NCBI GenBank assembly: GCA_030998015.1
Contig: JARWMV010000249.1
Coordinates: 248,001-312,000, forward strand
Reading direction: 5' to 3'
From: Ceratorhiza oryzae-sativae
Lineage: Eukaryota > Basidiomycota > Agaricomycetes > Cantharellales > Ceratobasidiaceae
Length of the DNA: 64,000 bases
Part shown: piece by piece, positions 33,199 to 64,000 of the stretch
Numbering within the stretch: position 1 is the stretch's first letter
Layout of the letters: the number at the start of each line of letters is the position of its first letter
Program-made: the position numbers and the translations under genes
The notes under the pieces: generated by a model
Told to the model about the DNA's origin: nothing
The model's input: the letters and a program-made list of their open reading frames with translations, nothing else
The model's database searches: none

Positions 33199-33473
33199 TG
33201 TAGAATACAAATATACAAATACATAGATACATAGATACATATCAAACATGCCAGAATAAACTAGCAATTGCATGACTCGTGTAGTACGAATCGCGTACTT
33301 ACTGTAACGTTCTACAATGTACTAGAACATCTCTTTTCTGTGTATATAAGGAGCTCTGTTTCGCTCTGTAGGCAGTCACCTGCTCACTCAAATATATTAT
33401 ATTTACCTGTCTTAAGCACACTGCGCTCTGCATGTATAGAGTGATATATATACATATAGTTTACATTTCAACA
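33199..33473 (+). repeat. Copia 5' LTR
   Basis: 275 bp, starts TGTAGAATAC and ends TTTCAACA. A TATA box (TATATAAG, 33343-33350) sits in the expected U3 position. Differs from the 3' LTR at 33244, 33329, 33367, 33429 and 33433; each difference is a CG in the 3' LTR that reads CA or TG here. Confidence 0.95.
33343..33350 (+). promoter_or_regulatory. TATA box of the copia 5' LTR
   Basis: TATATAAG followed by GAGCTCTGTTTCGC; the same element is at 38707-38714 in the 3' LTR. Position in the LTR fits the U3/R promoter. Confidence 0.6.
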
Positions 33474-39060: not shown

Positions 39061-39668
39061 AGCTCATTATGTAAGTTTGGAGAGGGTGGGGAGCAGGGGG
39101 AGGGCATATAGATGTGGTGCCCTATCTTGGCATGGGGGGTGGCCTTGATAACCCTGTTTTCTTTGTTTACCAATCATGTGACTAGTTAGGGCTGAGGTTG
39201 CAGCTTTGTTATGACACATCTCCAAGGGGTGCCCTTCCTGCATTCCCTCACATCAGCCTGATCCTTGCTGGCACTTGGGATCTCCACTTACTCACTCTGG
39301 TCAGGCCCCCTCTCTGACCCCTCTGGTATAAGGGGGTAATGAATGTGCATGTGACATCTCTGGGTCACATGAGCATGTTGTTTTGTTGTTTCTTTAGTCA
39401 GTGCACACATGACTTCTCTGGGTCACATGAGCATGTTGCTTTGTTATTTCTTTCGCCAGTGCACATGTGACCTCTCTGTGTCACATGACAGTTTGTTGCA
39501 ATGTCTGTTGTTGTTGGGAAGGAGGCTGTGGTCTTGTTAAGATGCATCTCTGAGGAGTGCCCTTCCTGCATTCCCTTGCATCAGCCAGATCCTTACTGGC
39601 ACTCAGGGCCTCCATTTACTCACTCTGGTCAGTGCCCCCTCTCTGACCCCTCTGGTATAAGGGGATAG
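39061..39668. repeat. Rep/ORF2 intergenic region of copy 1, tandemly duplicated
   Basis: Holds two versions of a roughly 310-bp block, near 39220 and near 39540, each with CCCTTCCTGCATTCCC, a GGTCAG...CTGACC stem-loop (39299-39319 and 39627-39648) and GGTATAAGGGG. A further shared block, CTCTGGGTCACATGAG, recurs around 39358, 39420 and 40432. The matching region of the complete element has one version (51870-52010). The solo LTR at 39669 is inserted at the end of the second version. Confidence 0.6.
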
Positions 39669-40348
39669 TGTTATGACCCGCCTAGCAGACATAACCTAAC
39701 AACCGAATATTGTACAGATTTATGGCATTTTTCCCGAAGTGGAACAAACCATAAACAAGATCACGTGATCTCGGCGCTTACCCAACGATTAAGCGCCGGT
39801 GGTTACCCTGAACTCGCTCCAGCGTTTCTCTCCCATGTTACTTGGAGCGAGGAGCGAGTTGTCACGTGATCTCGGCGCTTACCCAACGATTAAGCGCCGG
39901 TGGTTACCCTGAACTCGCTCCAGCGTTTCTCTCCCATGTTACATGGAGCGAGGAGCGAGTTGTCACGTGACCTTGGCGCTTATCCAGCGATTAAGCGCCG
40001 GGTGCTTAAGTCCAAAAGTCACATGACCCTCGGACCTCGCATGGCTCTATAAGATTCGGAGCTGCACAAACTTAGGATAAACAATTACCTAAGACCTAGT
40101 ACTATATAGAACCTATAACTGCTGTAGACGGTGCTTAGGAAAAGGGGGGCCACCGCAGCAACCACAGTCACATGTATATAAGGGGAGTGAAGCAAGACTG
40201 AACGCCTCAGCTTGCTTTATCTTGTCAACCACCATAGACCATAGCAAACACTGTAACTAGGACACTCAATACATACTGCATAGCACCAAACCGTCAACGC
40301 AGCCACTACTTAAGTGCTCCACAAGGGAGCCTCCAGAGGGTCACGACA
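39669..40348 (+). mobile_element. Solo LTR of the chromovirus family (family 1), CpG-rich
   Basis: 680 bp, starts TGTTATGACCCGCC and ends GGGTCACGACA, flanked by perfect 5-bp duplications GATAG (39664-39668 and 40349-40353). It contains a 101-bp tandem unit whose CACGTG starts fall at 39762, 39863 and 39964. Each unit carries two palindromes, CGGCGCTTA/TAAGCGCCG and CTCGCTCC/GGAGCGAG. A TATA box TATATAAG is at 40175-40182. It shows what the eroded LTRs at 49440 and 59096 looked like before CpG loss. Confidence 0.9.
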
Positions 40349-40533: not shown

Positions 40534-40972
40534 ATGTGAATCATCTCACTTGACTACAATCCTCTTAACTGCACCTGTTGTTCTATGGACCCTGGAGATT
40601 ATTGTGCCTACTGTGACTCAGTCTGCAATGCTGCACTTGAGGACTTCAAGGCTGATGTTGGGGATTGGGTGGTGTATGGAAGTGTTCATGAGTCTTACTT
40701 CTCCTCTTTTCTCCATTGCCTTTTGTGCTGACACTTTTGCAGAGGGTCATCCTATGATTGATGAGCAGGATCACTTGGCTGCCCTTGCTGAATTTTTTGA
40801 GGAGGGGTCAGCCCTATTATTTGAGGCCATGGAGCCTTTGGAGGTTTCTGGCAGTAGTCCTCTGCAGAACCTTATGGTGGATCTTCCAGGGGGGGAGACT
40901 CCATGGCTCTGGCCTAGGAGTCCTCACCAGGGTGTAGCCACTAAGCAGGATTGCAAGGGGAAGAAACCCTAG
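40534..40972 (+). pseudogene. ORF2 copy 1: Cys-rich accessory gene, broken
   Basis: Paralogue of the gene at 52196-52728 in the same relative place and antisense orientation. Exon 1 shows NPLNCTCCSMDPGDYCAYCD and ALEDF; an intron of about 60 bp ends at 40742; exon 2 shows EQDHLAALAEFFEEGSALLF and GGETPWL, ending in CKGKKP. The codon after the start ATG is a stop, so this copy is dead or starts elsewhere. Confidence 0.6.
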
Positions 40973-41079
40973 AGTTGGCCCTCCTCCAGTTGGTGTAAAT
41001 AGTTTATATGTGTATTATATTTTGGGAAAAGAAGAAAAATATTGATTTGGTATATGTCTTCACTGCAGAACTGTGATTC

Positions 41080-41800
41080 TTAGGTGGGGTTGTATTCCTC
41101 AGTCAGGGCTTCCTCCAGATTCTTCACCAATTCCCCATTCTCCCATTTCTCATAATCCTCCACCTCTTTCTCTTCTGCTGTCCTTATCAATGGTTTCTGC
41201 TCTTCCTCCACCAAGACTAAGGATTCCATGCTGGTCATTAAGTTTGCTGTGGGGTCATCTTCTTTTGGGTGCACCTTGACCCAGTTCCTGAAGTCCACAA
41301 GGTTTGCTTCTTTCAGTCAAATTACAGTGAACATCTCATCTGTTGTTATTGCCTCCAAGAGACCTGTATATGGGGCTGCTGGTAGTATCTTCCAGTCTTC
41401 CAGTAGCTGCTGGGCCCTGATCTCAACCTGCCACTTGAATGGGTTTGCATTTGCCATTTCTGTAATTGGTCTGCCATTTCTCCCCTTCTTCTTTGCTGCC
41501 CTGGCAACTGTGTTGACTGTTGGTCCTAAAAGTCTGTCAATGACATACATTTTGGTGTGCATGATTGCATTTCATGTTTTCAGGGCTCCTGGACCATACC
41601 ACTCTAGTACACCTCTGTTGGGCTCCAGGTGCTCATTTGCACTTATCCAGTTCTGTTTGTTCCTTTCCTTCATTGGGATATACTCCAGGTTAGTGCCTGG
41701 TAGGATCCTTTGTGCATACCTTTTTGCTTCCTCAGCTGAGTAGCATTGCACATCTGACCATTCTATCCTGTTTTCCTTCCTGTAGAGTGTTGCCTGTTGG
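41080..41800 (-). pseudogene. ORF3 copy 1: accessory gene of unknown function
   Basis: Minus-strand remnant with MHTKMYVIDRLLGPTVNTVA, GLLEAITTDEMFTVI and FRNWVKVHPKE, matching the frame at 52804-53678. Stops interrupt it near 41316 and 41565. The segment AEEAKRYAQRILPGTNLEYI stays in one frame here, while the other copy is shifted at that point. No known domain. Confidence 0.55.
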
Positions 41801-41975
41801 TTCCTTTGTGGGTGTCACTTGGTGGATAGACTAGATGGCCAGTTGTATAGTGATGCATATCTGTTGTTTGTGGTTGGTTTAGTGGCAGATGGCATATTAG
41901 TAATGTTGTTGTGTCAGCCTATAGGTGGTGATTGCAGGAGGGGGGTGTCTCTTCCTCCTATTCATGCTTTCATTT

Positions 41976-44900
41976 TTATAGCTGGCTCCTCTTTTGCTTG
42001 TTCTTCTTTGCTCTTGCTCTGAAGTCATTGTTTTTATGACTCAACTGGCCAGGCATTGGTGCATCAGGTAAGCACCTGTGCAAGTCATTCAGAGCCTCAC
42101 CCATTTTGTCAAACTTCTCTGCACACTCCATTGTGTCCTCAATTGGGTCATACCCCTTCCACCTTATTTGGTAGTATGGTGTGCCATTCCACCATTCCCA
42201 GTTTACCACATGGTCCACCTTGTATTCCTCCTCCCCTTCTCCTGTTATGATTGGTGGGGGTTTCACCTGCCTGTGGTGGAAGTCCTTATCTTCCTTGACT
42301 GCAGATAACGGGCTGACATGGAATACGTTGTGTACTCTTATTGTTTTTGGTAATTCCAGTCAGTAAGCATGGGATGAGATTTTTTCTGAGATTGTGAAGG
42401 GTCCCCCTTCCTGTTATCCAGTTTCTTTGCTGGTTGTTTGGAGGAGAGGTTTGATAGCAGGAGCCATACCTTGTCCCCTACTTTGAACTCCCTCCCTTGC
42501 TTTTCCAATGATCTATGTATTTCCATGGAGGCTTGTGCTTCATCCCAGATTTTACACATCCTTTCCTGCATTGACTGTGCTGCTGGGACTGTTTCATCAC
42601 CTGGGGTCTCTTTCAGCATTTCCCATGCCAGTGATCTCCCATAAACAGTTTCAAAGGCTGTTTGCCCTGTTGCTGAATTTACATGGTTGTTATGACAGAA
42701 TTCTGCAATAGGTAGCCACTTTGCCCAGTTGTCTTGCCTGTAATTGCAGAAGGTTCTTAAAACCCTTCTACCCATTGGTTTGTCCTTTCTGATATGCCAT
42801 CTGTTTCTGGATGTAATGCAGGAGAGTATCTGGGTTCTATCTTTAACGCTTTGTACAGTGCATGGAGGAATTGGCTGTTGAAGGTTGGGCCCTTGCCTGA
42901 TACTGTTGTCTTGGGGGTTCCATGCAACCTCCATATGTCTTTGATGAGGATCTCTGCTAACTCTTCTGTATTTGTAGATTCAAGGCATGGAATAAAGTGG
43001 GCTTGCCTAGAGAATCAGTCTATTACTGTTAATATGTGGTCATACCCATCGGACCTTGGTAATTTTACAATGAAGTCATATGCAATATCTTCCCACAGCT
43101 TTTCTGGGATTGGTAGCAGTTTGTGTGGGGCTGTCTGCTTGTGCCCCTTACTTATCTGGCGCACCTCACATGTATCCACATATCTGTTAACCTGGGCTTT
43201 CATTCCTGGCCAGTAGTATTCCCTTGATACTAGTTCCAGAGTTTTTGCATGCCCCTGATGTCCTGCAATGGCTGAGTCATGGAATCTGCTTAGCGGCTCC
43301 AGTCTGAGTGCTTTATCATCCAGGATATATATCTTCCCATCATACATCAGTATCTTTTCATTGATTTCATACCTCCTGAACTCCTTCCTTACAGATGGGG
43401 GTAGTTGTTCTTTGTTTTCTACAGTTTTGCATAGGGTCTGGATGGTTTCATCTTCTTTCTGTGCTTCATGCACCTTGTCCAGTAAACTGCCTCTAATTTC
43501 AGCTTTGAACCCTGTGAACCTGTCCAGTTGGATCATGATTTGTGGCTCTAGTGGAAACTCCCCATGATTGTGTTGCCATGACAATGCATCTGGTTTCTGT
43601 GGCATCTTGCCTTGTTGGCATACTATTTGGAAGTTAAATGAGGCTAGTAGAAGGTACTGTCAAGCATGCCTTCTATTCCATACCTTAGCTTCCTGCCAGT
43701 ACTGGAGGTTCCAGTGGTCAGTGTACACAGTGATTGGGATTTTGGTCCCTTCTAGTAATAACCTCCAGTGATCCAGGCCTCATACAATTGCAAGTAGTTC
43801 CTTGTTGTATGTGTCATAATTTCTTTGAGGTGGTGTGAAGCTTTCTGATAGGTAAGCTATGGGATGTAGTCTCCCATATTTGCCTGTCTGGCTTAGTACC
43901 ACACCAAGTGCCACTCCAGATGCATCTGTTTATAGGATATACTGTTCCTCTGGATTTGGGTGTGTAAGTACTGGCTCCTTTGTGATTGAGTCCTTGATTT
44001 TGTTGAAGGCTTCCTCTTCTTTTTCTGTACACTGGAATTTGGCATCCTTCCTGGTTAGTTCTGTTAGTGGCTTTGCTTTCTCACTGAAGTTTTCCACCCA
44101 TCTCCTGTAAAATCCTGCAAGTCCTAAGAAGGCTTGTACTTGCTTGACTGTAGTGGGAGTGTTCCAATCAACAATCACTTTTATTGTATCCTTCTCCATA
44201 GATATACCTTCTGGGGATATGACAATGCCCATGAAACTTGTTTCTGTTGTAAAGAAATGACATTTATTTGGTTTTAAAAATAGGTGGTTTTTGCAAAGTC
44301 TTCTCAGGACTTCCTTCACATGCTCCACATGTTCTTCCCTGGTTTTTGAGTAAACTAGGATGTCATCCATATATACTACCATGGAATCACCTATCATGTC
44401 TCTGAAGAGTTCATTTACAAACCCTTGGAAGTATGCTGGTCTGTTAATGACCCCAAAAGGCATCACCAGGCTTTCATAGATGCCATATTTTGTTTTGAAG
44501 GCTGTCTTCCATTCATCACCTTCCCTAATACATATATTGTTGAATCCCCATCTGATGTCCATTTTGGTGAATATCACTGTTTCTCTTAGTTGCTCTATAA
44601 GCTCTGGTTGGACAGGCAAGGGGAAGTGGTAAGGCTTTGTGATTGCATTTAACTTCCTGTAATCCACTACTAGTCTTAAGCCACCATCTGTCTTGTTGAC
44701 ATAGAAGCATGGTGCTGCTATACTTGACTGGCTTCTTCTGATTTTTCCATCCTTTAGTTCCTGCTCAAGATGTTTTTCTAGAGCCTCTGATTCTGCAGGT
44801 GTCATTGGGTATATTTTTGCTGGTTTTGGTAGCTCCACTCCTTTGATCAGCTTGATAGCACAGTCAAATTCCCCACTGTGGGGGGGCAATTCCCTGAACC

Positions 44901-47112
44901 CTTCTTCCTGAAAGAGGTCTGTGAATTTGATGAATTCCTCTGGTATTTGAACCTCTTCTATTGCTGCTTTCCCTGTGATTTGATCCTGGTATGTTATTGT
45001 CAGGTCTTGCCACTCAATGACTGGCTCAGCTTCATCCAACAAGTCTTTTCCTAGTATGATTTCAGTGTCTCCTAAGACATCACATACAGGGTGCACTGGA
45101 GTGGAGTGTTTTGCCCTCCACTTCAATCTGGAGATCCACCTTTTCTGATATGGCATACTTGATCTCCTTTCCATCTACTGCAATTACTGACTTTTTGTCA
45201 TCCAACTTTATGGTCTGTATGTTCTTTTCCTTCACATAATCTTTGTCAATAAAGTTTCAGGAAGATCCTGAGTCTATGAGTGTCTTGGCTGGTTCCATGA
45301 TTACATTGACCAATGTGTATTTTATGGACTGATTATTTGATTTCTTTAGGTAATATACATTGGCCTTAAGGGGTTTGGTAGGATCCTCTGACATGGATTC
45401 AGTGGATCCCTCTAGTTGTCTGACTCAGTTTCCCAGTTATCTTCTTGATTGTTCTTCTCAGTACTTGCTTTCCCCTGGATCTTGTTTTTGTCATAGGTCC
45501 ATTGTCCTCAACAGTCCTTTACAACATGTCCAGGTTTACCACATTTGATGCTAAGCCACTCTTTTTGGCATCTATCCTTTTCCTCCTTCAGGATCCTGAC
45601 TAGGTTAGTTTGTTTACTTTCCTGTTTTGCTTTGAAGGTGTTGTTCTGGTTCTTGTTGCTATAGGAGTTCTGGTTCTGGGGATTCCAGCTAGAGGTCACT
45701 GTGCTTGTTCCAGTTGGATTCAGTTTCTGGCTTGCAAACAACATATCATCAGTTTTGCATGCAATTGTAATCCATTCCTCCAGAGTGGGCTTTTCTTCTC
45801 CCATGACCATAGATAATCATACTCACTCCTTTCACACTTCTGGTTTGAGTCCTTCCTTGAACCTATCAATTAGGGCATCTTCATTCCAGTCCACTTCCTG
45901 TTGCAGGGTCCTAAACCCTGTGACATAGGTGGCAGCACTACCAATTTGGGTGAGTTTACTTAGTTCCCTTACTGCCTTCTCCTTTTTGACAGGGTCAGAG
46001 AAGTTTTCTAGGAATGCCTTTTTGAATGCTTCCCAGGAGGGCAGGTGGGGGTGAGCCTCTTTTTGTGAGGGTTTCTTAAGGAAGGGTTGTGCCCAATTTG
46101 AGGCTTCTCCACTTTCCATATTCATCAGGGTGTTGGATATTTTCCTGTTGTCATTAAAGGTTCCTTCATCATAGTCTGCAAAGTAAATCTCCATTTTCAT
46201 TGGAAGGTCTTCTGCCCCTTTTCCTTTTTTGCCATTGAAGGCATCTGGTCTTTTCATCCATGCTTCTTTGGGAATGGATGCTCCTGCTGTGGTGGTCTGG
46301 TTCATGAAGGATTCCCTTGTTGTAGTGGTCCTCTTGGGTTTTTTCTCTTTCAGTTGGGCTGTTGATTCCCCCTGGAATGATCTTCAAACAAAGGGTGATG
46401 CTGATCTAGAAGATGCTTGCAATCCTCCCTCAGGTCTGGGGGTGGTTACTTGTGTTACCTGTGGTCTCCCTTGGATTTCCCTTTGATCCTTGATTTAATC
46501 AGATGGCCTTCCCTCTTCTAGATGGTTTGTCAGGTCAGTAACTTGTTGCTCCAGTGCCCTCATAACTTCCTCTGTGCTTTGGATAGTTATGTTCATGGTT
46601 TCCAAGTCAGTTTTGATATCTCCAATCTTGTTGGCATTCCCTTTTATAGACAATAGGGCATTCTTTTGTTGGTGCAATGTATCATTAACCACTCCAACTA
46701 TCTCACTGACATTTTTTGTCATCTCTGATACCCCTCTTTGATTCTTATAACAGTGTTCAGGCTCTCTCATGAGTAATTTCAGGATGTTATTGCAGTATCT
46801 GATGTATTGTTGAACTTCTTCCCATAATCAATCAAAAGATTTCCACATTTTTCTGATGATTTGATTGCCCTTTGTAGCCCTTCTTGGTTGCTTTCCCTGA
46901 AGTCAATTAGGCCCCTTCAAAGAATAGTGGCAATTATTTGCACAGGGGTCAATGATGCTAGGGTGCTGGGTTGTTTGTCAACTATTTCCCCTGCTTGGTT
47001 TGCAAAGGACATTTGTGGTACTGCAGTGTCCCCTTCATCTAGCTTGCCCCCTTGATCCTAAATGATCTCTGTAATTTCCTCCACCTTGTCTGTGGAAGTG
47101 TTTGTGGCTAGT
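41976..47112 (-). pseudogene. Chromovirus Gag-Pol, copy 1 (decayed)
   Basis: Read right to left: Gag pieces (46495-46770 and 45832-46305, start MNQTTTAGASIPKEAWMKRP), a zinc knuckle with its first Cys replaced by Ser (SIKCGKPGHVVKDC, near 45510), and protease/RT/RNase H (43930-45174) with GLRLVVDYRKLNAITKP, KMDIRWGFNNI and an intact YMDD at about 44360. Integrase follows (42338-43605; HSQ-less remnant with YDFIVKLPRSDGYDHILTVI), then a chromodomain (41976-42266; YQIRWKGYDPIEDTMEC). In-frame stops separate the pieces. The Gag N-terminus is cut by the family 2 repeat at 47113. Confidence 0.85.
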
Positions 47113-48421
47113 TGCTATGGATCACTAACATATTTCTATTATTTTAGTCTGCTCTGCCAACCTCAAGCAATGCCTCTGTAATTTTCTTGAAATTAAATGA
47201 ATTTGTATGCATCTGAATTTGTACTATTTGTGTTCCATTAAATATTACAAAATCTCCTCTTTCCAACACATATTTTATCGTGATTTTATCTTGAGAACCC
47301 AGGGAGATATAGAGGTTGCAATATTTCCTCTTATCAGGGAATGTTGATTACAACATCACACTGCTCATATCTCAGCAACCGCTTATGCTATCAAAGCGAT
47401 CTTGTGCTCTATCGATAGCCAATCTTCGGCAGTATTTGCTGCCCAAAGATTGTCGCGATCCGCTGGATCCTCGTGCCGGAATGGTCCAAAGATCATTAGA
47501 ATCTTACTGGACCATCAATCAAGATCTAATGACTCCAGTGAGTCGGGAGAGCCTTCCAAATTGATCCAGAAGCTTCCCCAACTCACTTTATGACTGACTG
47601 AGATGTAGCCTCTGTTCATTACATGTATATACTATGATAATATGATCTACAACCCAATAGCAGGTCTCAGATGCATCAATGCCTTCAATCCACACCCTGT
47701 CTTTACTCTCTTATCCTATACTGGGCTAGGGTGTACCCCAAGTATAGCAGTACCCTCTTTTGATGATTGCACTGGCATGCATGCATCTATTTGGCTCTGG
47801 AATGCCCTCCTCAGGGTATAAAAGGACCTCCTCTGAGGCCTTTCCAGACCACCTTCACTCATCTACTCAACCCAGACTGGTTATTGGTTTCCTTTTTCTC
47901 TTTCTATTTCTCTTGTCTGTGTGTGATTTCTTATATAACTAGTACTGAGGAATAAAGTACCATATTAGTTATATACTGTCTGATTCATTATATCTTATAT
48001 ACAGAGATATATAAGGATACAATATTGCCTGATTGAGCATGACATTAAGTACCAGCTATTAGAGGAAATCTAAGTACCTGTGGCTGAGGAAGTACATGCA
48101 TTAGGCAGCCCACCATCTATCCTATAAGCTATCACTTAAGTCTAGTATTAAGATTAGTATCAGTTAGTCCAAGCGACTAGGGCTGAACTACATTTAAGAT
48201 ATCTAAGGGAACCTGACCATAGTAGTCTTGCTCTTTATACCTATAAATTAGTCAGTTTACACTGTGAAAGATTAAGACTACCTTGAGTGTTACTTGATTG
48301 CATTGCAACTACTTTGAGCCTTCTTACTCTAGTCTAAGAAGTATTGAGTATGATTAGTGTATACTAACATATCTACATTTGCTTAAGCTCTATATATTCA
48401 AGTGTACCCTGACCTGTAACA
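47113..48421 (+). mobile_element. Family 2 LTR-like repeat, copy C
   Basis: 1309 bp, starts TGCTATGGATCACTAACA and ends CCTGACCTGTAACA; inverse of copy B. A TATAAAAGG box lies at 47817-47825. Flanking 5-mers are CTAGT and CAAGT (four of five agree), possibly an eroded target duplication. About 47368-47485 keeps CpGs that copy A has lost. Confidence 0.7.
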
Positions 48422-49439
48422 CAAGTTCCTCACAAAGGAACTGTTGCAAGACTCAGAGCAGCAGACAATACACCCAGACCTAGTGATGACAGAGAAAGCC
48501 TTGGGCATATAATAGTTGATTATACCCATCATGTAGCCTTGTACAAGCCTCATACTCAGGCTAACACCAGCCTTCCAAGGGTCAAGGAGACATTTCTTGA
48601 TTGTTTCAACCAGGTCCAGCCAATTGTGCTAACAAATATTTGTTCATAAAAAATAGATTAAGTAGCAGAACAAATGGACAAAGACCCCTTGGCAGCCAGC
48701 ACCTGTTACAGGTCAATGACTCACCTTGATAGATTGAAGGTGAGCCTCTGTCCATTGCAACTCATTTGGGTACCAATGATCATGCCATTGGCTGATCTGC
48801 TGTGGGCAAAGGTACTGGAAGGCATTGTAGTCAATTGAGCTAAGCTGTTTTATGACCTTGAATGGTCTCCCAGCATACCCAACTGCTCAGGCACTGGATT
48901 CAACCAAGCTCCAATAATTTTTGTGACACTTGTTAATTCTATGCATTGGATAGAGAGGAACTTGTTGCTTGCTGGGATTATTTGAATCTTGACAAGCAAC
49001 AGAGATATTAATGGAACTATAAGGTCCAGAGAGGGAGGAGATAGACTGCCATGTGTCAAGCAAGGTAGGATGAACTGTAGATAGTTGCTACACAGATTGG
49101 TGGATGTGAATATATGGATTATAACACTGTCATATAAATACTTAGGCACAGGTTGTTTTCATGCTTCTCTGCATTCTGGGCTGCTTTATAAGCCTTCTTC
49201 TGGCAAGTGTGCTGCACTCACTTGCAAATCTTCTTGTGCTTGCACAACTGAGCCTGATTCTGCACTTCAAGATATGCAAACTATGCCACCTTGTCTTCTT
49301 CCTCTGTTAGACAATCAGGATATCAGTGCTTTTCCTTTATTTGGTGTTCTTCTTGAGAGATTGACTTGAATGGTAGAGTTGCTTGTTGGAGCTTTGTTTG
49401 TGGTGGGGAGGGCCATTTGAGATTGAAGTCTAGCCCCAT
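48422..49439. other. Unclassified transposon remnant
   Basis: 1 kb, CpG-depleted. The minus strand near 48720-48900 has protein-like character (YAGRPFKVIKQLSSIDYNA, WHDHWYPNELQW) suggesting a decayed transposon protein, but I cannot name the family. No terminal repeats found. The 5-mer CCCAT at its right end is the left target duplication of the next element. Confidence 0.4.
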
Positions 49440-50136
49440 TGTTGTGACCCTCTGGATGTTTCCTTGCAAAGCACTTAAGTAGTGGCTACATTGACAGTTT
49501 GGTGTTAGGTGGTATGTATTGAGTGTTCTAGTTACAGTGTTTGTTATTAAGGATGTGATGCTGATATTCTGGCATTCTGGCATCAAGGGTAACTCAATTT
49601 CATCAGCTTATAAATCAGTGCTTCTGTAATTGAGTTACCCTTGATGCCAGAATGCCAGAATATCAGCATCACATCCTTATTTGTTATGGTCTATGGTGGT
49701 TGACAAGATAAAGCAAGCTGAGGCATCCAGTCTTGCTCTATCCTTCTTATATAAGCCTGTGGCTGTGGTGGCTGCAGATGTATTATCTAAGCACAATCTG
49801 CAGTAGGTACAGGTTATATACAGTACTATGGGTTAGGTAATTGCTTATCTTAAGTTTGTGCAGCTCCAAATCTTATAGAGCCATGCAAGGTCTGAGGGGT
49901 AAGTACTAAGGTCATGTGATCCTGCTGTAAGTGCTGACATCATGTGACAACTTGCTCCTTGCTCCAAGTAACAATGGAGAGAAATGCTGGAGCAAGTTCA
50001 GGGTAACCACTGTAAGCACCAATTAAGCACTGAGGTCACATGAACTTGTTTATGGCTCATTCTGCTTAGGAAAAATTGCCATAAATCTGTAAAAATATTC
50101 AGTTACTCTGTTATGTCCATTTGACAGGTCATAACA
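49440..50136 (-). repeat. Chromovirus 3' LTR, with a MITE inserted
   Basis: 697 bp, of which 140 bp are the MITE plus its target duplication. It has one unit of the tandem block where the 5' LTR has two. A TATATAAG-type box (read on the minus strand) lies near 49750. Confidence 0.92.
49548..49679. mobile_element. 132-bp MITE with perfect 52-bp terminal inverted repeats
   Basis: Arms 49548-49599 and 49628-49679 are exact inverse complements (start TAAGGATGTGATGCTG), with a 28-bp loop. It is flanked by perfect 8-bp duplications TTTGTTAT (49540-49547 and 49680-49687); the other LTR has a single uninterrupted TTTGTTAT at the same place. An 8-bp duplication points to a hAT-type transposase acting in trans. 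No coding capacity. Confidence 0.9.
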
Positions 50137-50152
50137 TTATCCCCCCCTTTGG
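50137..50152 (-). other. Chromovirus polypurine tract
   Basis: On the minus strand, AAAGGGGGGGATAA directly precedes the 3' LTR. It is the primer site for plus-strand synthesis. Confidence 0.75.
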
Positions 50153-50202
50153 ACATGTCTTGGGGGACCTCAAGACATGATTTCAATCCTTTATGCAAAA
50201 GG

Positions 50203-50329
50203 AATCTCATGCACCAAGGAGGTTAAGGGTGCTGGACTCAAACCAACAACCTTTCAGCTGATTCAGTATTGTTCAATGAGGTGAGGCTGAGTCAGGCTAG
50301 ACCCCTTAACCTCTATGTTACATGAGATT
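50203..50329. repeat. Imperfect inverted repeat with a tRNA-like B-box
   Basis: Ends AATCTCATG / CATGAGATT are perfect 9-bp inverse complements. An inner pair GGTTAAGGG / CCCTTAACC encloses a segment whose minus strand contains GGTTTGAGTCC, one change from the RNA polymerase III B-box. It could be a decayed tRNA-derived element, or a structured 3' region of the Rep-like gene. I could not fold a full cloverleaf. Confidence 0.35.
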
Positions 50330-50490
50330 GTTTTTCTTTTCTTTGTTGTGGAGGTTATTCCAGGGTGAGGAGGAGTCTGCTTCTTCTCTGGATGCCCCAA
50401 CTGTTTGGATGGGTGTAGCAGAAGTTGTACAATATAGTAAATTATTCTAAGGGAATACAAAGAATGGTTTTCCTCCTGAGTACACCCATT

Positions 50491-51775
50491 CTAGTTTTTT
50501 GATACCCATAAGTCCCCCTCTTCCCCCTCTATGTCTGACCAACACTTCATGATTGCTGACCAGCTATTACCCAGAATAACTGTCAGCTGTACCTTCATTG
50601 ATTTCACATGCATGTACCTGCCTGTGAAGTCTGCCTCATACTGGCTCAGGGCCTTGAGCAAGTACTTCCTGTTTGACTGGACCATGTCATCCAGGATCCA
50701 AATGTTGGCATCTTCCAACAAGTTCCCCATGTTCCACACATTGCACATCTGGCTGTGGCAGCCCTTGGGTTGTGCATACGCTGTTTTCCCTGTTCCAGTC
50801 TCTCCTTCTATCACCAGGATGCAATGGTGCACCCCTCTTCCTCTCTTCTTGACTTCCTTGGCAAACCATCTGTCTGCTTGGTCAATGTGCTCCCAGTCTT
50901 CCAGGACCTCTAACTCCACAGGGATTGCAGGCATGCAACCCCGGTCTTCCTTGAATGTGTATTTGGCATATGCTTGTACCAAGTTCCAGGTTGTCACCAT
51001 CTGGAGGGGGTGGAGGTGCTTGAATGCCTGGTAGTACTCCTGTTTCATCACTGAGGCAACAATCTCTGTCCCATCCTCCAAGTCTGCCTCCATCCTAGAC
51101 TGTTTTCCACCCTTTCCCTTCACCAAGATCTCCTCTAACCTTTCCAAGGTCAGATCCCCTCCCATCAAATCCTCTATCTCCTTGCTGTTAGCTCCAACAT
51201 CCTTCCAGAGATAGTTGAAGGCATCCCTTGCTGGGTTGCCTCCTGGCCTGTCCTTGAGGTCCTTGGGCAGAATGTTGGGGTGTTGCCCCTCAAAGTCCCA
51301 GAACCCCACATTCTGGGTGTTCCACCCACCCTTCTGTTCCTGACTGATGGAGAGGGTGTGGATGTGCAGGGGCTGGGTCAGGTCATAGTTCAGCTCCTCC
51401 AGGTTGTGCTGTTTGACCACAGCTAAAGTTGCCCAGTGATTGGGCCAATGGTGGCAGAGCACCTTGTATTGGGCAATGAGCCCACTTGAGGGCTGATCAT
51501 GTAGCTTCGACCAGGTCAGCAGCACTGCCCTGGTCTGGATGCAGAATTGGGGGGCCAGCACAGTTTCAGTCAGCTCTTTGGACCTGCAATCCATTGGTGT
51601 AGGCTGTGTAGAAGCAGGTGAGGGGGCTCAGCTTGATCCCAAGGGTGCCAGCAATGGCAATGCCAACCTCCACCCTGCGCTTGATTTGTTTGGCTGGGGT
51701 GTTCCCACATTTGAGCCATCTTTGCTTAGCATTGTTGGTTTTTTTAGAGGTAGATGCATCTTGTGGGGAGGGCAT
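50491..51775 (-). CDS. Rep-like protein: HUH endonuclease plus SF3 helicase, as in CRESS ssDNA viruses (retrotransposon cargo)
   Basis: Two exons (51584-51775 and 50491-51534, 49-bp intron, phase 0) encode about 411 residues. HUH motifs are in order: motif I LLTWS (69-73), motif II HIHT (121-124), and motif III YLWK (172-175) with the candidate nicking Tyr. FWDFEGQHPNI (142-152) resembles the block between motifs II and III in geminivirus-type Reps. The helicase part has Walker A GETGTGKT (308-315), Walker B IWILDDM (342-348) and a motif C-like VILGN (383-387). Such proteins nick and unwind circular ssDNA genomes. No stop interrupts either exon, unlike Gag-Pol around it. The N-terminal exon is conserved in copy 1, which supports it. 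Whether the protein is made or active is unknown. Confidence 0.82.
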
Positions 51776-52195
51776 GAGATGATAGCCCCTTTTACCCCCA
51801 AGGGCATCCCCTAGATATGCCTTCTCTGGCTGTTGTGGTCATGTGGTTTCCTGATGTAGGCTTGTGCTGGTTATGACGCATCTCCAAGGGGTGCCCTTCC
51901 TGCATTCCCCCATGTCAGCCTTATTCCTTGCTATGCTCAGGGCCTCCACTCCTCCATCTTTGGTCAGTGCCCCCTCTCTGACCCCTCCAGTAGTTAGGGG
52001 ATAGCGTATATTGACATGACTAGGCTAGGTCATGTGATTCCTGTGCTTTGTTGTTTGTTTTCTTGCAGATGGTCACATGTCTGTTTGTCTCACCTGACCA
52101 GACTTTGTTTTGATGTTTGTGCAAGTTATCATGTTGCACTGTGATCTTTTAATGTTTGTGGTTTTGTTGTTTCCCTTCCTCATCCTGTCTTTACT
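51776..52195. promoter_or_regulatory. Divergent intergenic region between Rep-like gene and ORF2, with conserved stem-loop
   Basis: About 420 bp separate the two divergent starts. GGTCAG (51962-51967) and CTGACC (51978-51983) form a 6-bp stem around the C-rich loop TGCCCCCTCT. Copy 1 keeps this hairpin twice. A second palindrome CATGAC/GTCATG lies at about 52015-52036. The usual CRESS loop nonamer is absent. Confidence 0.45.
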
Positions 52196-52728
52196 ATGTA
52201 CATTATTACCCTCAACTACAATCCCCTTGACTGCACCTGCTGGTCTCTCCCTGAGGGGGAGTACTGTGCCTATTGCAACCCTGTGTGCAACGCCTCCCTT
52301 GAGGACTTCCATGAAGGTGTCAGGAACTGGTTCTTTCTTGGGGTGCCAGGTACATGTGCTTCTTCTTTGTTGGTCTCTTGTTACTTACTTGCTCTGTAGA
52401 AGAGTGCATACTCCTCAATGGTCAGGCCCATGAGGCCACCCTTGAGCATGTCTGGGCACTCATTGATCAGGACTACAAGTCCTTTGAGGAGCAGGCTCAC
52501 CAGGCTGCTCTTGCCAAATTCTTCAAGGAGGGCTCTGCTCCCTTGTTTGAAGAGGCTTTGCCCTTTTCAGCATCTGGTTCTGGGTGTTTCCAGAACTACA
52601 TGGCTGACTTCCTGGGGGGGGAGGCCCCTTGGTTGCAGCCCACCACCCAGTCAGTTTTTTGGTCTGATAAGAAGGATAAGAAGGGCAAGAAGCCCTATAC
52701 CCAGCCCCTCAAGGGCAAACGTAAATAG
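52196..52728 (+). CDS. ORF2: Cys-rich accessory protein, antisense to the host element
   Basis: Exon 1 (52196-52349) encodes a Cys-rich head, CTCWSLPEGEYCAYCNPVC, spacing C-x-C...C-x2-C-x3-C, possibly a metal-binding site. The intron 52350-52399 (50 bp, GT..AG) joins in frame to exon 2 (52400-52728), which has AALAKFFKEGSAPLF, GGEAPWLQP and a basic end KKDKKGKKP. Total is about 160 residues. Cys pattern and the AALA.FF.EGSA.LF block recur in copy 1, so this is a real gene of the element. Its position opposite the Rep-like gene is that of a capsid gene in CRESS genomes, but I see no capsid similarity and make no such claim. Confidence 0.65.
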
Positions 52729-52803
52729 AGAGTAAAAATGTATTAGGTTTGATATATAAAAATTCTTATACATTTGAGAAAAAATCCGTGAGGGGCAAAG
52801 TGG

Positions 52804-53678
52804 TCATATGGGGGCTGCTTCCAACAGTGGCACCTCTTCCAGAGCTTTGACAAGCTCATTTTCCCACTGGTCCCAGTCCTGTTTGGCTCCTTCAATGGCT
52901 GGGTCCAGGGTGGGTTCCTTTATCACTGGCTTTGCTTCTTCCTCAGCCATGACCAGTGATTCTAGGCTTGATGTAAGGCTTGTCATGTCTGTGTTGTAAT
53001 TGGTGTTTTTGTTTGGGTGCACCTTCACCCAATTTTGGAAGTTGCTCATGTTTGCCTGCTTTGTCCTGATAGCAGTAAACATTTCATCAGTGGTAGTTGC
53101 TTCAAGCAGTCCCACATACAGTGCAGCCAGTGTCAACTCCCACTCTTCCAACAATGCCTTGGCCCAGCACTCCACCTCCCAGTCCCCCCCATCTACCATT
53201 TGGCCTGCAGCCCTCCTCTGTTGTCTTGCTGCCTCAGCCACCATGTCAACCATTGGTCCCACAATATTGTCAATGACATGCATTGGTGTTCTTAGCAAGG
53301 TGTTTCTTGTTGTTGGCTTCCAGCTTCCATGCCATATCAGGACCCCTAACCTGGGATCCAGGTACTTGTCATTGTTGATCCAGTTCCTTTCATCCCTTAA
53401 CTTCTTCAGGATGTACACTAGGTTAGCCCTGGCAACAGTTGCTTGGCATACCTCTGGGCATCTTCCACACTAGAGCAGTACATCCCTAGTTTAGGACAAT
53501 TTTCCTTGCCATGGTAGGGTGCTGGCCACCTAGTGGTGGGTGGCTGCCAAAGTGGGGCCACCTGATTTTTGACAAGTGGTATGTAACAGTTGGGATGTGC
53601 AACTGGGTGAGTGATAAAAGGCATGTTTTGAGGTTTTGCAGGTGTATTGTGGTGCAAGTGAGGTGGTAGAGCAGGCAC
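52804..53678 (-). CDS. ORF3: accessory protein of unknown function, frameshifted
   Basis: Sense with Gag-Pol and starting about 30 bp after the Pol stop. A Pro/His-rich N-terminal half (53418-53678, ending EDAQRYAKQLLPG) and a longer C-terminal half (52804-53418; GVLIWHGSWKPTTRNTLL, GLLEATTTDEMFTAI, NFQNWVKVHP) lie in different frames. Comparison with copy 1, where this stretch is continuous, indicates a one-base loss near 53425-53435. The acidic, Glu-rich tail ends at 52804. No recognised domain. Confidence 0.6.
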
Positions 53679-53710
53679 TGGCCTTTCTTTGGTATCCTGG
53701 ATGGCTCATT

Positions 53711-56700
53711 TTAAAGCTTTCTAGATCCTTGTTTGGTTCTCTTTGGTCTGCCTTTTGAGTCATCTGAGGATTGACTCATCTTGACTGGCATTGGTGCATC
53801 TGGTAAGCACCTCTGCAAGTCATTTAGAACCTCTTTCATGTCAGCAAACTTGCTGGCATGTTCCATTGTGTCTTCTATTGGGTCATAGCCCTTCCATCTG
53901 ATTTGGTAAAACAGCTTGCCATTCCGCCATTCATAATTTGCAATGTGGTCCACCTCATACTCCTCCTCTCCTTCTTCCATTATGATTGGTGGTGGTTTGG
54001 CCTGCCTTCTTTGGAAGTCTTTATCTTCTGTGAATGGCAAGAGGAGATTCACATGGAATACATTGTGTATGCATATGGTTTTAGGTAAGTCCAGGTGATA
54101 CACATGGGACAAGATCTTCTCTGTGATTTCAAAAGTGCCCCCTTTTTGGTTGTCCAATTTCTTGGAGGGTCTCTTGGACAAGAGGTTTGTTAGGAGCAGC
54201 CAAACCTTATCTCCTACCTTCAATTCCTTTCCTTTCTTTTCCATTTGTTGGTGTAATTCCATTGAGGCTCTTGCCTTGTCCCACACCTTTTCCATTTGAT
54301 TACACATGCTGTCTGCAGCAGGTGCCTTGGACAGTTCTTCTCCCTCTCAGACAACCCATCTTGGGTTTTTTCCATATACCATTTCAAACAGGGTTTGTCC
54401 TGTTGTAGCATTTATGTGGTTGTTATGGCAGAATTCAGCAATGGGTAACCATTTTACCCAATCATCTTGTCTATAATTGCAGAAGGTTTTTAAGAATCCT
54501 TCTACCCATTGATTTGTTCTTTCTGACAGTCCATCTGTTTCTGGATGGAAGGCAGTGGAGAATCTGGGCTTTGTCCCAATTCCCTTGTATAGGGCCCTTA
54601 GGAATTGGCTGTTAAAGGTTGGCCCTCAGTCCAAGACAGTGGTTTCTGGTGTCCCATGATGTCTCCATACCTCCCTTATGAATATTTCTGCCAGTTCTTC
54701 TGCATTGGTGCTCTCCAGACATGGTACAAAATGGGCCTGCCAGGAGAAGTGATCTACAACTGTCAAGATGCTGTCATACCCTTTTGAGACAGGTAATTTG
54801 ACAATGAAATTGTATGCAACATCTGCCCATGGTTTCCACAGGATTGGTAAGGGCTTCAGGGTAGTGCCTTGTTTGTGTCCTTTGCTCCTTTGGCATGTTT
54901 CACAAGATTCCATGTATCAGTTTACTTGGGCCTTCATTCCTGGCCAGTAGTAATCCCTCGATAGTAATTCTAGTGTTCAGGCTTGTCCCTGATGACCTGC
55001 CACAGGAGCATCATGGCACTCCTCAAGGAGGCTCAACCTCAAATCCTTGTCATCTGGGATGTAGAGCCTATTGTCATACCTTAATAGGCCCTACTTCATT
55101 TCATACTGTCTAAATTCCTTCTGTACTGAGGCAGGTAGTTGTTCTTTATTTGCCACACTCAGCCTTAAGGATCTGATAGATTTGTCTTCTTCCTGAGCTT
55201 CTTTAAGCTCCTCCCAGAAGTTTCCCTGTACCTCTGCCTTGAAACCTATGAACCTTTCTTCTGGAATCATGATCTGTGGTTCCATAGGGGTGTCCCCATG
55301 GTCACTCCTCCTGGAAAGGGCACCTGGCTTCTGTGAGAGTTTCCCTGGTCTATACACAATCTGAAAATTGAAGGGTGCCAGAGTGAGATACCATCTGGCA
55401 TGCCTGCTATTCCACATCTGGGCATTTTGCCAGTACTGGGGGTTCCTATGGTCAGTGTATATCACAATAGGGTCTTCTGTCCCTTATAGGTATAGCCTCC
55501 AGTGCTCTAAGGACCTAACAATTGCAAGCAATTCCTTGTTGTAGGTGTCATAATTTTTCTCTGGTGGGGTGAAGCTCTTCGATAGGAAGGCAATTGGATG
55601 CAATTGGTTGTCATTGCTCTTTTGGCTTAGTACTGCCCCCATGGCCACTCCTGAGGTGTCTGTTTCCAGTATGTATGGCTTGTTTGGGTTTGGGTGGATC
55701 AAGACTGGTTCTCTTGCTACTGCTTCTTTAATAGCTTCAAATGCTTCTTGTTGTTTTCTCTCCCACAGAAATTTGATGTCTTTTTGAGTGAGACCTGTGA
55801 GGGGTTTGGCTAAGGTGCTAAACTTCTCTATCCACCTTCTATAGAACCCCACAAAGCCTAGGAATGCTTGGACTTCTTTTACTGTTTTAGGTTCTGGCCA
55901 TTCCAGGACTGCCTTTACCTTTTCCTTCTCCATTGATATCCCTTCTGGGGATATGACAATTCAGATGAAGCTTACCTTCTTCACAAAGAACTGGCACTTG
56001 TGTGGTTTCAGAAAGAGGTGGTTTTCCCTCATTCTTCTTAGCACTTCCCTGACATGTTGTACATGTTCTTCCCTGTTTCTGGAAAACACTAGTACATTGT
56101 CAATGTAGATTACCATGTAATCATCTATTATGTCATGGAACTTTTCCATCATGAACCTTGTAAAGGTCCTTGGTCCTTCCTTTACTCCAGATGGCATGAC
56201 CAAGCATTCAAACTGGCCTTCTCCTGTCCTGAAAGCTGTTTTCCACTCATCTCCCTCTTTTACCCTGATATTGTTGAATCCCCATTGAACATCCATTTTT
56301 GAATAGATGGTTGTGTCCTTCAGTCTCTCAATCAGTTCTATTTGAATTGGAAGTGGAAACCTGTCTGGCTTGGTGATGTCATTCATCTTACAGTAGTTGA
56401 CTACCAGCCTAAGCCCTCCATCTGCTTTGTTTACATAGAAACAGGGTGCAGCTACAACTGACTGGCTGGGCCTTATCTTTCCACTTCTTAGTTCCTCCTC
56501 TAGGTACTCCCTGAGTGCCTTTGTTTCTGCTGGCAACATACTGGACCTTTTTGCAGGCTTTGGCAGCTCTGCTCCCTCAATCAGGTCCATTTTGAAGTCC
56601 AGATTTCCTTGGTGGGGTGGAAGTTCTTGGAAACCTTCTTCCCCAAACAGGTCTTCAAAATCCCTCAATTCTTCTGGGATTTGTAGGCTTTCTCTGGCTG

Positions 56701-58975
56701 CCCTTGCCTTGATTTCATCTGGGTATGAGATGGTAAGGTCTTTCCAATCTATGATAGGTTCTGCTTCCTCAAGCCATCCTTTCCCTAGCACTATGTCTGT
56801 GTCACCTAGGGTCATCACATAAAGGGAGCATTTCAGAGTCTTCCCTTCCACTTCAATATTTAGTTCTGCCCTTTCTTCTAGGGCATCCTTGATTTCATTT
56901 CTGTCAATGGCCACAATTGATTTCTTGTGTTTGAGGGGAGTGGTTTGGATCCCCTTTTCCCTTGAATAGGCCTTATCAATGAAGTTGGTTGAAGATCCTG
57001 AGTCAATCAGCATCCTTGCTGGTTCCATGATTCCCTCTACCATAGTGTATATTATTGATTGATTACTAGATTTCTTGAGGTAACATACATCTGTGGTAGG
57101 GGTTATATTGGGGTCCTCCAACATGGAAGCAGTAGGACCAATTAGTTTTCTGACTCAGAGCTGCTTTCTTCTTCAACTTGCCTGCTGGCCTTCCCTTGTA
57201 TCTTAGCTTTGTCATAGGTCCACTGGCCCTGGCAGTCCTTCAGGGCATGCCCTGATTTACCACATTTGATACAGAGTCCTTCTTTCCTTTGCCTGTCTTT
57301 TTCACTGTTTGGTATTCTTACCACATTGTTAGTTTGGGTATTCCCCTGTTTGCTGCTGGTCCCTGAAGGCTTGTTTCCCCCTTGTTTGTACCTTGCTGGT
57401 GCCCAGGTTGAATTTGATGAGTTGCTGGTCTTTGCATTCATTTCTGGTTTGCAAACTGCATGTCATCCATTTTGCAGGCAAAGTTGATTAGTTGATCTAG
57501 GGTATATGATGGTCCTTCAGCCTCATTTGCCAGTACTTCAATCCTCAAGATCTCTGGTTGTACTTTGGGTTTTAACCCTTCCCTGAATTGGTCCTTGAGG
57601 GCCTCCTGGTTCCAGTCTACCTCTTGGATCAGGATCTGGAATTGGGTAGCATAATCCAATGCACTCTTGGTTTGCATTAATTTCCTTAGCTTCTGGATGG
57701 TCTTTTCCTTTATGACTGGGTCATTAAAGGCATCCAGGAATCCCTTCCTGAATCCTTCCAGGATGCAAGGATCCCTGTGTGTTTGCCTGCTAGTAGTTTC
57801 TGGCAGTAAGGTTGTGCCCAGTTTGCTGCTTCCCCATCCTCCATATTCATTAACTCAGCAGATATCTTTTTTTGGTTGTCAAAGGCTGATTCATCGTAGT
57901 TGGCAAAGAAAAGTTCCATGCCAATTATGAAGTTCTCTGCTTCCTTCCCCTTTTTCCTGTTAAATTTGCTGGGTCTTCCTAGTTGTGCCTCCTTAGGAGT
58001 GTGGTTTGTGGCAAGGGTAGGTTGGTTTGCTTGGGATGGAGGTTCTGTTTGGGGTCTTATTGCAGACTCAACCTGGAAGGTTCTTCCCAGAAAGGGTGTT
58101 TGTATTGGGGAGGCTGAGGGGGATCATGAGGGGCTTCCTATGACCACCCTAGTTCTTCCCCTGGTCTCTTCTGTCCTTTCCCTTGGCCCTCCTGCTTCTG
58201 TTGTTTTCTGGAGCTCATTTCCTAGATCAGTTACCTGGTGTTCTAGTGCAGTCAGGATCTCCCCTGTGTTTTCAGTTTTCTTCTCTAAGCTTTCAAGCTT
58301 TCACTCTTGCATTCCCAATACCCAGTTTATTTCCATGGAGATGTCCTTTAATTCTTTTATCAGGTTCCCCATTTCCACTTTTAGGTTGTCCTGGTTCTTT
58401 GCCACATAGAGGACATTTTTGTTGGATGTTTCCATTGATCTTACCATCCAGTCCATGTTTCCTTCTTGCTGTGTTAGTGACATTTGACACTGATTTATAC
58501 TTGTGATTGCCTTTTCTAGTTCCCTATGGTTATTGTCTCTAAGTTCCTTGAGCCCTGCCCTGATGGTGGTGGCAATGGTGTGAATAGGGTTGACAGTGGT
58601 TATGGCTCTGGAACCTGGCTGGGGTTGTGTCCTTGCCTCTTCTGCCAAGGCTGTGCCTTGTTTGTATATGGTTTGGGTCATATCTTCTACCTCATCCCTC
58701 TCTGAATTTGAGATATCTTCTGGGTCTGGATTTATCAGGAGTGTTGGCAGTTGAGGGCTGCAGAGTGGTATTCCCCCTATTTGCCCTCCCAGGGTGGGGG
58801 CCCAAGTGGGGTTAGATTGAGCCACTGGTTGTGGATTTTGTGGCAACCCCCCTGGCATTCCTTGGAGGGTTTCATCTGGGTTACCTTCAGCCTCTGGGGA
58901 AGTAACAGGCTTGGGTGATTGTGGTCTACTATTTGCCACTCTGCTTTGAGATTGAGTTTGTGGTCTCTGTGACAT
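53711..58975 (-). pseudogene. Chromovirus Gag-Pol, copy 2 (decayed)
   Basis: In translation order: Gag N-terminal part (58301-58975), Gag core (57438-57919), and zinc knuckle CIKCGKSGHALKDC (near 57240-57280). Protease MLIDSGSSTNFIDKA and RT (55961-57124) follow with LRLVVNYCKMNDITKPDRF and KMDVQWGFNNI; the RT catalytic box is YIDN (Asn codon 56096-56098) instead of YIDD. Next come RNase H (55484-55933, YILETDTSGVAMGAVLS), the integrase zinc and core regions (54626-55465, YNFIVKLPVSKGYDSILTVV), and a chromodomain (53711-54307, FYQIRWKGYDPIEDTMEHA). Stops split it into at least seven pieces, so it is not autonomous. The chromodomain normally steers integration to heterochromatin. Confidence 0.9.
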
Positions 58976-59095
58976 AGTTTCTTTGTATTCTCTTATGTAT
59001 CACAGGAGTTAGCTGGTTTCTCATGTACTCAGCCCTTAGTATCTGTGTAGTATACTTATGTTTGCCACTAGTTAAGTTAAGAGCTTGCTTTATAA

Positions 59096-59766
59096 TGTTG
59101 TGACCCTCTGGATGCTTCCTTGCAAAGCACTTAAGTAGTGACTACATTGATGGTTTGGTGTTAGGTGGTATGTATTGAGTGTTCTAGTTACAGCGTTTGT
59201 TATGGTCTATGGTGGTTGACAAGATAAAGCAAGCTGAGGCATCCAGTCTTGCTCTATCCTTCTTATATATGCCTGTGGCTGCAGTGGCTGCAGATGTATT
59301 ATCTAAGCACAATCTGCAGTAGGTACAGGTTATATACAGTACTATGGGTTAGGTAATTGTTTATCTTAAGTTTGTGCAGCTCCAAATCTTATAAAGCCAC
59401 ACAAGGTCTGAGGGGTAAGTACTAAGGTCATGTGATCCCACTGTAAGCGCTGACATCACATGACAACTTGCTCCTTGCTCCAAGTCACAATGGAGAGAAA
59501 TGTTGGAGCAAGTTTAGGGTAACCACCATAAGCACTGAGGTCACATGATCCTGCTGTAAGTGCCAAGATCACGTGACAACTTGCTCCTTGCTCCAAGTAA
59601 CAAGGGAGAGAAATGCTGGAGCAAGTTCAGGGTAACCACCATAAGCACTGATTAAGTGCCAAGGTCATGTGAACTTGTTTATGGCTTGTTCCACCTAGGA
59701 AAAATTGCCACAAATCCATAAAAATATTTGGTTACTCTGTTATGTCTGTTTGACAGGTCATAACAC
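59096..59766 (-). repeat. Chromovirus 5' LTR
   Basis: 671 bp, ends TGTTGTGACC / GGTCATAACA. Carries two tandem units (the AACTTGCTCCTTGCTCCAAG block appears twice, about 113 bp apart) against one in the 3' LTR. No primer-binding site complementary to a tRNA I recognise follows it on the minus strand. Confidence 0.92.
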
Positions 59767-59771
59767 CCATG

Positions 59772-63235: not shown

Positions 63236-64000
63236 TGTTACAGGTCAGAGTACACCAGAATATCTAGAGCTTAAGAAAATGTAGGTATGTTAGTATACAC
63301 TAATCATACTCAATACTTCTTAGACTAGAGTAGGAAGGCTCAAAGTAGTTGCAATGCAATCAAGTAACACTCAAGGTAGTCTTAATCTTTCACAGTGTAA
63401 ACTGACTAATTTATAGGTATAAAGAGCAAGACTACTATGGTCAGGTTCCCTTAGATATCTTAAATGTAGTTCAGCCCTAGTCACTTGGACTAACTGATAC
63501 TAATCTTAATACTAGACTTAAGTGATAGCTTATAGGATAGATGGTGGGCTGCCTAATGCATGTACTTCCACAGCTACAGGTACTTAGATTTCCTCTAATA
63601 GCTGGTACTTAATGTCATGCTCAATCAGGCAATATTGTATCCTTATATATCTCTGTATATAAGATACAATGAATCAGACAATATATAGCTAATATGGTAC
63701 TTTATTCCTCAGTACTAGTTATATAAGAAATCACACACAGACAAGAGAAATAGAAAGAGAAAAGAAACCAATAACCAGTCTGGGTTGAGTAGTGGAGGGA
63801 AGGGTGGTCTGGAAGGGCCTGAGAGGAGGTCCTTTTATACCCTGAGGAGGGCATTCCAGAGCCAAAATAGATGCATGCATGCCAGTGCAATCATCAAAAG
63901 AGGGTACTGCTATACTTGGGGTACACCCTAGCCCAGTATAGGATAAGAGAGTAAAGACAGGGTGTGGATTGAAGGCATTGATGCATCTGAGACCTGCTAT
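63236..64000 (-). mobile_element. Family 2 LTR-like repeat, copy D, cut by window edge
   Basis: Starts TGTTACAGGTCAGAGTAC and follows copy B almost base for base to the end of the window, including the TATAAAAGG box (inverted, near 63830). Inserted in the family 3 LTR. Confidence 0.75.

Follow-up and report, generated by a model that had tools for sequence, protein, structure and literature searches.

The stretch analysed here, called the window below, is 64,000 nucleotides (nt) of DNA from Ceratorhiza oryzae-sativae (GenBank assembly GCA_030998015.1, contig JARWMV010000249.1, positions 248,001 to 312,000), and its positions 49440-59765 are occupied by a long terminal repeat (LTR) retrotransposon of the Ty3/gypsy type, lying on the minus strand, which carries a gene with the motifs of a viral replication initiator (Rep). 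A preliminary description made from the sequence alone had reported an LTR pair, a CCCAT target duplication, a polypurine tract and a chromodomain Gag-Pol; all of these were confirmed by coordinates, LTR alignment and Pfam. The minus-strand 5' LTR (59096-59765, 670 bp) and 3' LTR (49440-50136, 697 bp) have TG...CA termini, starting with TGTTATGACC and ending with GGTCACAACA in the window copy, and their alignment over 557 positions shows 39 differences, 37 of which are transitions. CCCAT is found at 49435-49439 on the side of the 3' LTR and at 59766-59770 on the side of the 5' LTR, and the polypurine tract (50137-50152, minus strand) lies immediately internal to the 3' LTR. The gag-pol of this copy is split into ten minus-strand frames of at least 80 amino acids (aa), comprising a gag region of several broken frames (57438-58999, role assigned by position), protease and reverse transcriptase (RT) matching the Pfam families RVP_2 and RVT_1 (55961-57154), a broken RNase H region (55091-55960, assigned by position) and an integrase region (53711-54916, assigned by position) whose end matches SH3_Tf2-1 and the chromodomain in Pfam (54346-53711). 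The copy thus has the features of a Ty3/gypsy element, namely paired TG...CA LTRs with a target duplication, and protease and RT followed by SH3_Tf2-1 and a chromodomain. The 3' LTR includes a 132-bp palindrome at 49548-49679, with 60-nt arms that are 95% complementary and lie within an 8-bp direct repeat, TTTGTTAT; it is a MITE-like (miniature inverted-repeat transposable element-like) insertion.

Between pol and the polypurine tract the element harbours, in this order, ORF-X (open reading frame X; 52804-53469, minus strand), ORF-Y (52196-52728, plus strand), a conserved noncoding block in the intergenic region of ORF-Y and Rep (51860-52069), and the Rep gene (50491-51627, minus strand). ORF-X, which in many other copies falls within open frames that reach about 300 aa or more, and ORF-Y, an antisense gene of 160 aa with a predicted intron at 52350-52399, are two further element genes besides gag-pol and Rep. 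Neither matched a Pfam family, and protein search returned no homologue of ORF-Y. The Rep frame, 51627-50491, has 378 codons and contains the series LLTW, HIH, FWDFEGQHPNI, YLWK, GETGTGKT, WILDD and ILGN, which we take to be motifs I-III of an HUH (histidine-hydrophobic-histidine) nuclease with a stretch resembling the geminivirus Rep sequence (GRS), followed by Walker A, Walker B and a motif C-like site; this is the order expected for a geminivirus-like Rep. Definitions of HUH motifs II and III are given in PMC6668415. The order claimed in the preliminary description, HUH I-III and then Walker A, Walker B and motif C, was borne out in this open frame. A regular expression of the ordered motifs had no match when one homologue was shuffled 200,000 times, and it matched 10 of 90 ORFs of at least 300 aa, all ten of which are Rep copies (the window copy and locus L001 are one copy in this set); it matched 12 of 70 homologues, many of the 70 being fragments or misjoined gene models.

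Protein search yielded 56 homologues of Rep, and all those with a named organism are entries of Ceratobasidium annotated as 'hypothetical protein', which points to a member of the Ceratobasidiaceae as the likely host. The best five are 429 aa in length and 63-65% identical along the whole query, and a profile search found at least 70 proteins of the same kind among the 7997 closest candidates. Compared with the 429-aa form, the window Rep is shortened because of stop codons at both ends, its N-terminus lacking about 36 residues and its C-terminus about 15. The earlier statement that the Rep exons have no stops therefore holds only in part. The 411-residue spliced product predicted at the same time found no support, as the best homologues are each a single unspliced frame of 429 aa. 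A second minus-strand frame (51566-51838), which lies over the Rep start, is also similar to the beginning of several gene models from Ceratobasidium (P0006, P0011 and P0013 among them), and the overlapping frames at this start may both be read.

In the genome analysed (48.8 Mb, 253 contigs), Rep was found at no fewer than 109 places (109 scored of 237 candidates) with identities of 78-100%. Counted by hand, 34 of the 109 copies have no stop inside the match, and the stops within Rep copies are mostly TGA. ORF-X and/or ORF-Y lie upstream of Rep at 96 of the 109 places; when the upstream neighbours were assigned by coordinates, ORF-Y, ORF-X and a listed RT were obtained for 60 places, ORF-Y and ORF-X for 34, other RT-containing sets for 6, and none for 9. 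Missed RT neighbours are to be expected, because the RT list holds 104 places of 1,044 candidates. The tally was made after dropping second pieces of one copy, which left 104 of 106 rows for RT, 145 of 150 for ORF-X, 148 of 150 for ORF-Y and 109 of 110 for Rep. Among the 30 nearest loci, 28 have LTR sequence adjoining Rep on its 3' side, partial in L003, L017 and L030; L011 and L025 have none.

The cassette of the window element, with its gene order unchanged, also accompanies two more distant RT relatives, L042 (61% identity in RT) and L041 (63%). Compared with the window element, their ORF-X is 38-44% and their antisense ORF-Y 37-38% identical, LTR-like stretches are also present, and their Rep is 67-70% identical over residues 51-378 and 44% over the first 52. 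In both, an intron with GT-AG borders and a length of about 60 nt is predicted close to residue 51/52 of the window protein. It is the only predicted Rep intron among the copies read and is absent from the window family and from the 429-aa proteins, an absence that would be accounted for if it had been lost when a spliced RNA was reverse-transcribed. A further element with this cassette order lies within the window itself, at 32-46.4 kb. It is decayed and broken by insertions, its RT is 61-62% identical, and its Rep, beyond the insertions, consists of two pieces with 65% and 56% identity.

Rep is under purifying selection. In 39 Rep copies, read as they stand, the HxH pair, YLWK, HPN, the Walker A Lys and the motif C Asn are kept in all 39. 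Two copies have a stop in place of the motif I Trp, seven have Met for the Thr of Walker A, and 14 show one or more D-to-N changes in Walker B; on account of the Walker A and Walker B changes, many copies must be regarded as damaged in the helicase part. The ratio of nonsynonymous to synonymous substitution rates (dN/dS), obtained from pairwise counts that are not independent, was 0.08-0.49 for 8 intact copies (28 pairs), with the high values coming from close pairs, 0.08-0.11 for the six pairs between the sublineages L024/L026/L029 and L031/L034, and 0.26 as the median of the 39 copies (741 pairs). Transversions at codon positions 1, 2 and 3 of these 39 copies numbered 2,456, 2,138 and 10,026, respectively. 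The median dN/dS was 0.39 for ORF-Y (31 copies) and 0.23 for ORF-X (7 copies). The RT matches at L037 and L039 come from different elements, with an identity of about 40%, which weakens the multi-copy RT statistics, and the preferred comparison of Rep with RT is that of the window element with the second element, where dN was 0.23 for Rep and 0.28 for RT, with dS near saturation. Rep is about as conserved as RT between the families.

Because Rep recurs in many copies and in divergent families and is under selection, it has the appearance of an established element gene that selection maintains. The preliminary description had seen in it a captured initiator, carried as cargo by an RNA-copying element, and had left the choice between decay of, and constraint on, the gene. 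The pairing of LTRs and Rep holds and recurs genome-wide, and constraint is the alternative that stands; decay, and passive cargo of one copy, do not, because of the 109 scored places, the divergent families and the purifying selection. We are highly confident that this is an LTR lineage with a selected Rep-type gene.

The assignment to the Rep proteins of circular Rep-encoding single-stranded DNA (CRESS) viruses rests on the ordered motifs together with a sub-threshold match to Gemini_AL1_M. This family was matched by 10 of 34 Rep family members (best E 0.001, 19.5 bits against a cut-off of 24), and Gemini_AL1 by 1 of 34 (E 0.23). In 5 of 10 homologues scanned, the Gemini_AL1_M alignment covers approximately positions 11-106 of 107 and lies directly before Walker A, and this position and coverage count in favour of the identity. 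Matches to nSTAND3 in 24 of the 34 (best E 0.043) and to AAA_22 in 19 (best E 0.2) presumably arise from the Walker A site. Helitrons encode a two-Tyr HUH protein joined to a large superfamily 1 (SF1) helicase and are without LTRs; the present gene, with the single Tyr of YLWK and a length of 378-429 aa, in an element with LTRs, does not fit this description.

The noncoding block is conserved as well. Positions 51868-52065 are 76.5% identical to L041 over 200 bp, and positions 51868-52057 are 74% identical to L042 over 191 bp. In steps of 60 bases between families, the best part of the block reaches 82% and the best part of Rep 85%, and ORF-X and ORF-Y range from 20 to 77%. The block is a natural candidate for the Rep target or for a shared promoter.

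As the best explanation, we propose that Rep may serve to replicate DNA copies of the element. As an active HUH nuclease and superfamily 3 (SF3)-type helicase, it would nick and unwind them at the adjoining noncoding block, its putative target; the substrate would be circular forms of the double-stranded complementary DNA (cDNA) of the element. A DNA-copying step would thereby be added to the RNA cycle, and replication of the cDNA circles would make more copies available to be transcribed or integrated. The element probably acquired a Rep like that of geminiviruses or genomoviruses before its families split, and then retained it for its benefit to the element. This role is put forward tentatively, and we hold it to be somewhat improbable as it stands; identity and role taken together, with the role weighing most, fall a little short of an even chance. 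That the element replicates doubly, RT making the DNA and its own CRESS-derived rolling-circle initiator then multiplying DNA circles, is possible and rather doubtful. As a sign of rolling-circle replication, tandem arrays were looked for by eye, and just two same-strand neighbour pairs at a distance of 10-12 kb were seen (C20 and C240).

Several results weigh against this proposal. Searches of Rep against Pfam, PHROGs, NCBIfam, PADLOC and Protein Data Bank (PDB) sequences gave nothing above cut-off: the window Rep had no Pfam or NCBIfam match at E up to 1, and its only, weak match was to a DnaA-like PHROG (E 0.24). The preliminary description had suggested a search with Gemini_AL1 and other profiles as a check of the gene, and no curated cut-off was reached; a Pfam Gemini_AL1 search of the genome itself had no match, the control likewise being without one. 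Unrelated families score almost as high as Gemini_AL1_M, namely P53_TAD (E 0.005), Jiv90 (E 0.005) and an ORC1-type family (E 0.007). Two AlphaFold models of Rep had mean predicted local distance difference test (pLDDT) values of 35 and 38, and because both are poor their Foldseek matches were disregarded. No viral relatives of Rep were found in IMG/VR by tblastn scans, and motif-pattern scans of the same database gave 1 and 7 stretches, which were dismissed on contig size with no Rep looked for within them. Regarding the origin, the nonanucleotide TAATATTAC does not occur within one mismatch across 49440-59765. Within the block, a stem of 5 bp that encloses a loop of 9 nt is intact in 31 of 38 copies and altered in both divergent families, a second stem of 6 bp varies chiefly at CpG-type sites, and neither counts as structural evidence of an origin hairpin. 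The sole other LTR pair tested, C56, has no matching 5-bp duplication; its 5' LTR sits inside another Rep copy, and its flanks differ. Apart from these points, the octamer TCAYRTGA (CACGTG-like, often CpG-decayed) was considered as an iteron: it has 30 matches on both strands of the window where 6.1 would be expected, grouped mainly within LTRs and further repeats, and was rejected, as 21 of the 30 lie outside the element.

CpG dinucleotides are strongly depleted in the element, with observed/expected ratios of 0.00-0.15 in Rep, RT, the block, the 5' LTR and ORF-Y against 1.02 in window positions 1-20000. The element is in all likelihood a target of methylation, given this depletion, which also fits the predominance of TGA stops in Rep copies. 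The depletion speaks for a different function, in which Rep does not replicate the element and instead shields it from host silencing by hindering the maintenance of DNA methylation. According to PMC6338049, geminiviral Rep and C4 lower MET1 and CMT3, which points the same way. Such a function by itself has no need of the HUH Tyr, the HxH pair or the conserved noncoding block, and CpG has been lost from the copies despite Rep; we consider it unlikely.

A regulatory function, in which Rep is kept for DNA binding and, bound to the block, sets the expression of Rep, ORF-Y or the LTR, would account for a conserved block between two divergent genes and accords with the selection on ORF-Y (dN/dS 0.39). 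Binding alone, however, would need neither the catalytic Tyr nor the Walker A Lys, both kept in 39 of 39 copies, and this function appears quite unlikely.

The cassettes have moved among elements. In the gag-pol blocks compared, L038 differs from L036 by 0.9-2.3%, against 11-20% across Rep, and L035 differs from L036 by 0.6-1.7% across gag-pol, against 25% in the block 53095-52496. Near-identical gag-pol backbones have thus swapped cassettes, the simplest presumed route being a switch of template while reverse transcription was under way, and the family trees of Rep and RT therefore need not agree. Exchange of this kind would suit the view that Rep, the block and ORF-Y are an endogenised ambisense CRESS-like replicon, for which the LTR element is a vehicle and which may replicate separately. 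Ambisense CRESS viruses have divergent genes around a noncoding block, the layout in which Rep and ORF-Y diverge here, and the 9 of 109 Reps with no listed neighbour, by coordinates only, may be added as a qualifier. On the other hand, no capsid-like gene was recognised, ORF-Y lacks a homologue in the protein search, no canonical origin was seen, and an LTR stands beside Rep in 28 of 30 copies; we regard the view as quite improbable. Still less credible is an unrelated fungal protein with chance motifs, which the lack of a significant profile or fold match would suit: against it stand the seven ordered motifs, matched in none of the 200,000 shuffles, and the match to Gemini_AL1_M at approximately 11-106 of 107 in the right place, making it very unlikely. 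Finally, that Rep is neutral cargo, amplified with the element and now decaying, agrees with the stops in many copies, mostly TGA, and with a stop-free match in only 34 of 109, but it is contradicted by the selection tests (dN/dS of 0.08-0.15 in diverged pairs and the third-position excess of transversions) and by retention of Rep in divergent families, and is extremely unlikely.

The LTRs, protease and RT, the chromodomain ending pol and the 5-bp duplication are those of Ty3/gypsy chromodomain LTR retrotransposons, from which this element differs in having three extra genes beyond pol, of which one is antisense and another bears the Rep motifs. To our knowledge, ordinary members carry none of the three, and we know of no LTR retrotransposon that carries a selected DNA-replication initiator. 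With the Rep of geminiviruses and genomoviruses the gene shares motif II HxH, a single-Tyr YxxK, a GRS-like stretch, Walker A and B, and motif C in order; unlike them it is located inside an LTR element and scores below the profile cut-offs, with no canonical origin sequence found. In the open literature, covered by titles and abstract openings with subscription papers and preprints outside the scope, no description of an LTR retrotransposon that encodes a CRESS Rep was found. The nearest known case is the DNA transposon of Tuber melanosporum (PMC3198968), likewise a multi-copy fungal mobile element with a geminivirus-like Rep. That transposon ends in terminal inverted repeats of 37 bp and contains transposase ORFs, and a target duplication is not obvious in it, whereas the present element has LTRs, RT and a target duplication, and the word stem 'retrotranspos' is absent from that text. 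In Bursaphelenchus, a nodavirus-like element also represents viral sequence inside a retrotransposon, but that insert comes from an RNA virus, and, according to the abstract of PMC5177903, the genomes of other nematodes yielded none of this kind. If the proposal is true, a replication module that works through RNA and one that works through DNA can merge into a single durable element, and two virus-type replication systems are united in one stably inherited genome. The Rep-carrying LTR lineage would offer a system in which to study the origin of such hybrids, and would account for a set of Ceratobasidium 'hypothetical proteins'.

In the second element of the window, the decayed Rep-like gene, with 7 stops, is at 32186-33219 on the minus strand, and gag, RT, RNase H, integrase and ORF-X are at 40534-46398 on the same strand, with ORF-Y on the plus strand. 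The noncoding block is matched twice, at 39208-39395 and 39523-39671, and an LTR at 39668-40348 is in the opposite orientation. At L020 and L023, which are other copies of the element at 49440-59765, LTRs of its own family have landed within the ORF-Y region and within the noncoding block. A 1.3-kb repeat is present in both orientations at 27633-28947, 30879-32183, 47110-48423 and 63236-64000, with the copies 90-97% identical, and one copy adjoins the end of the second-element Rep.

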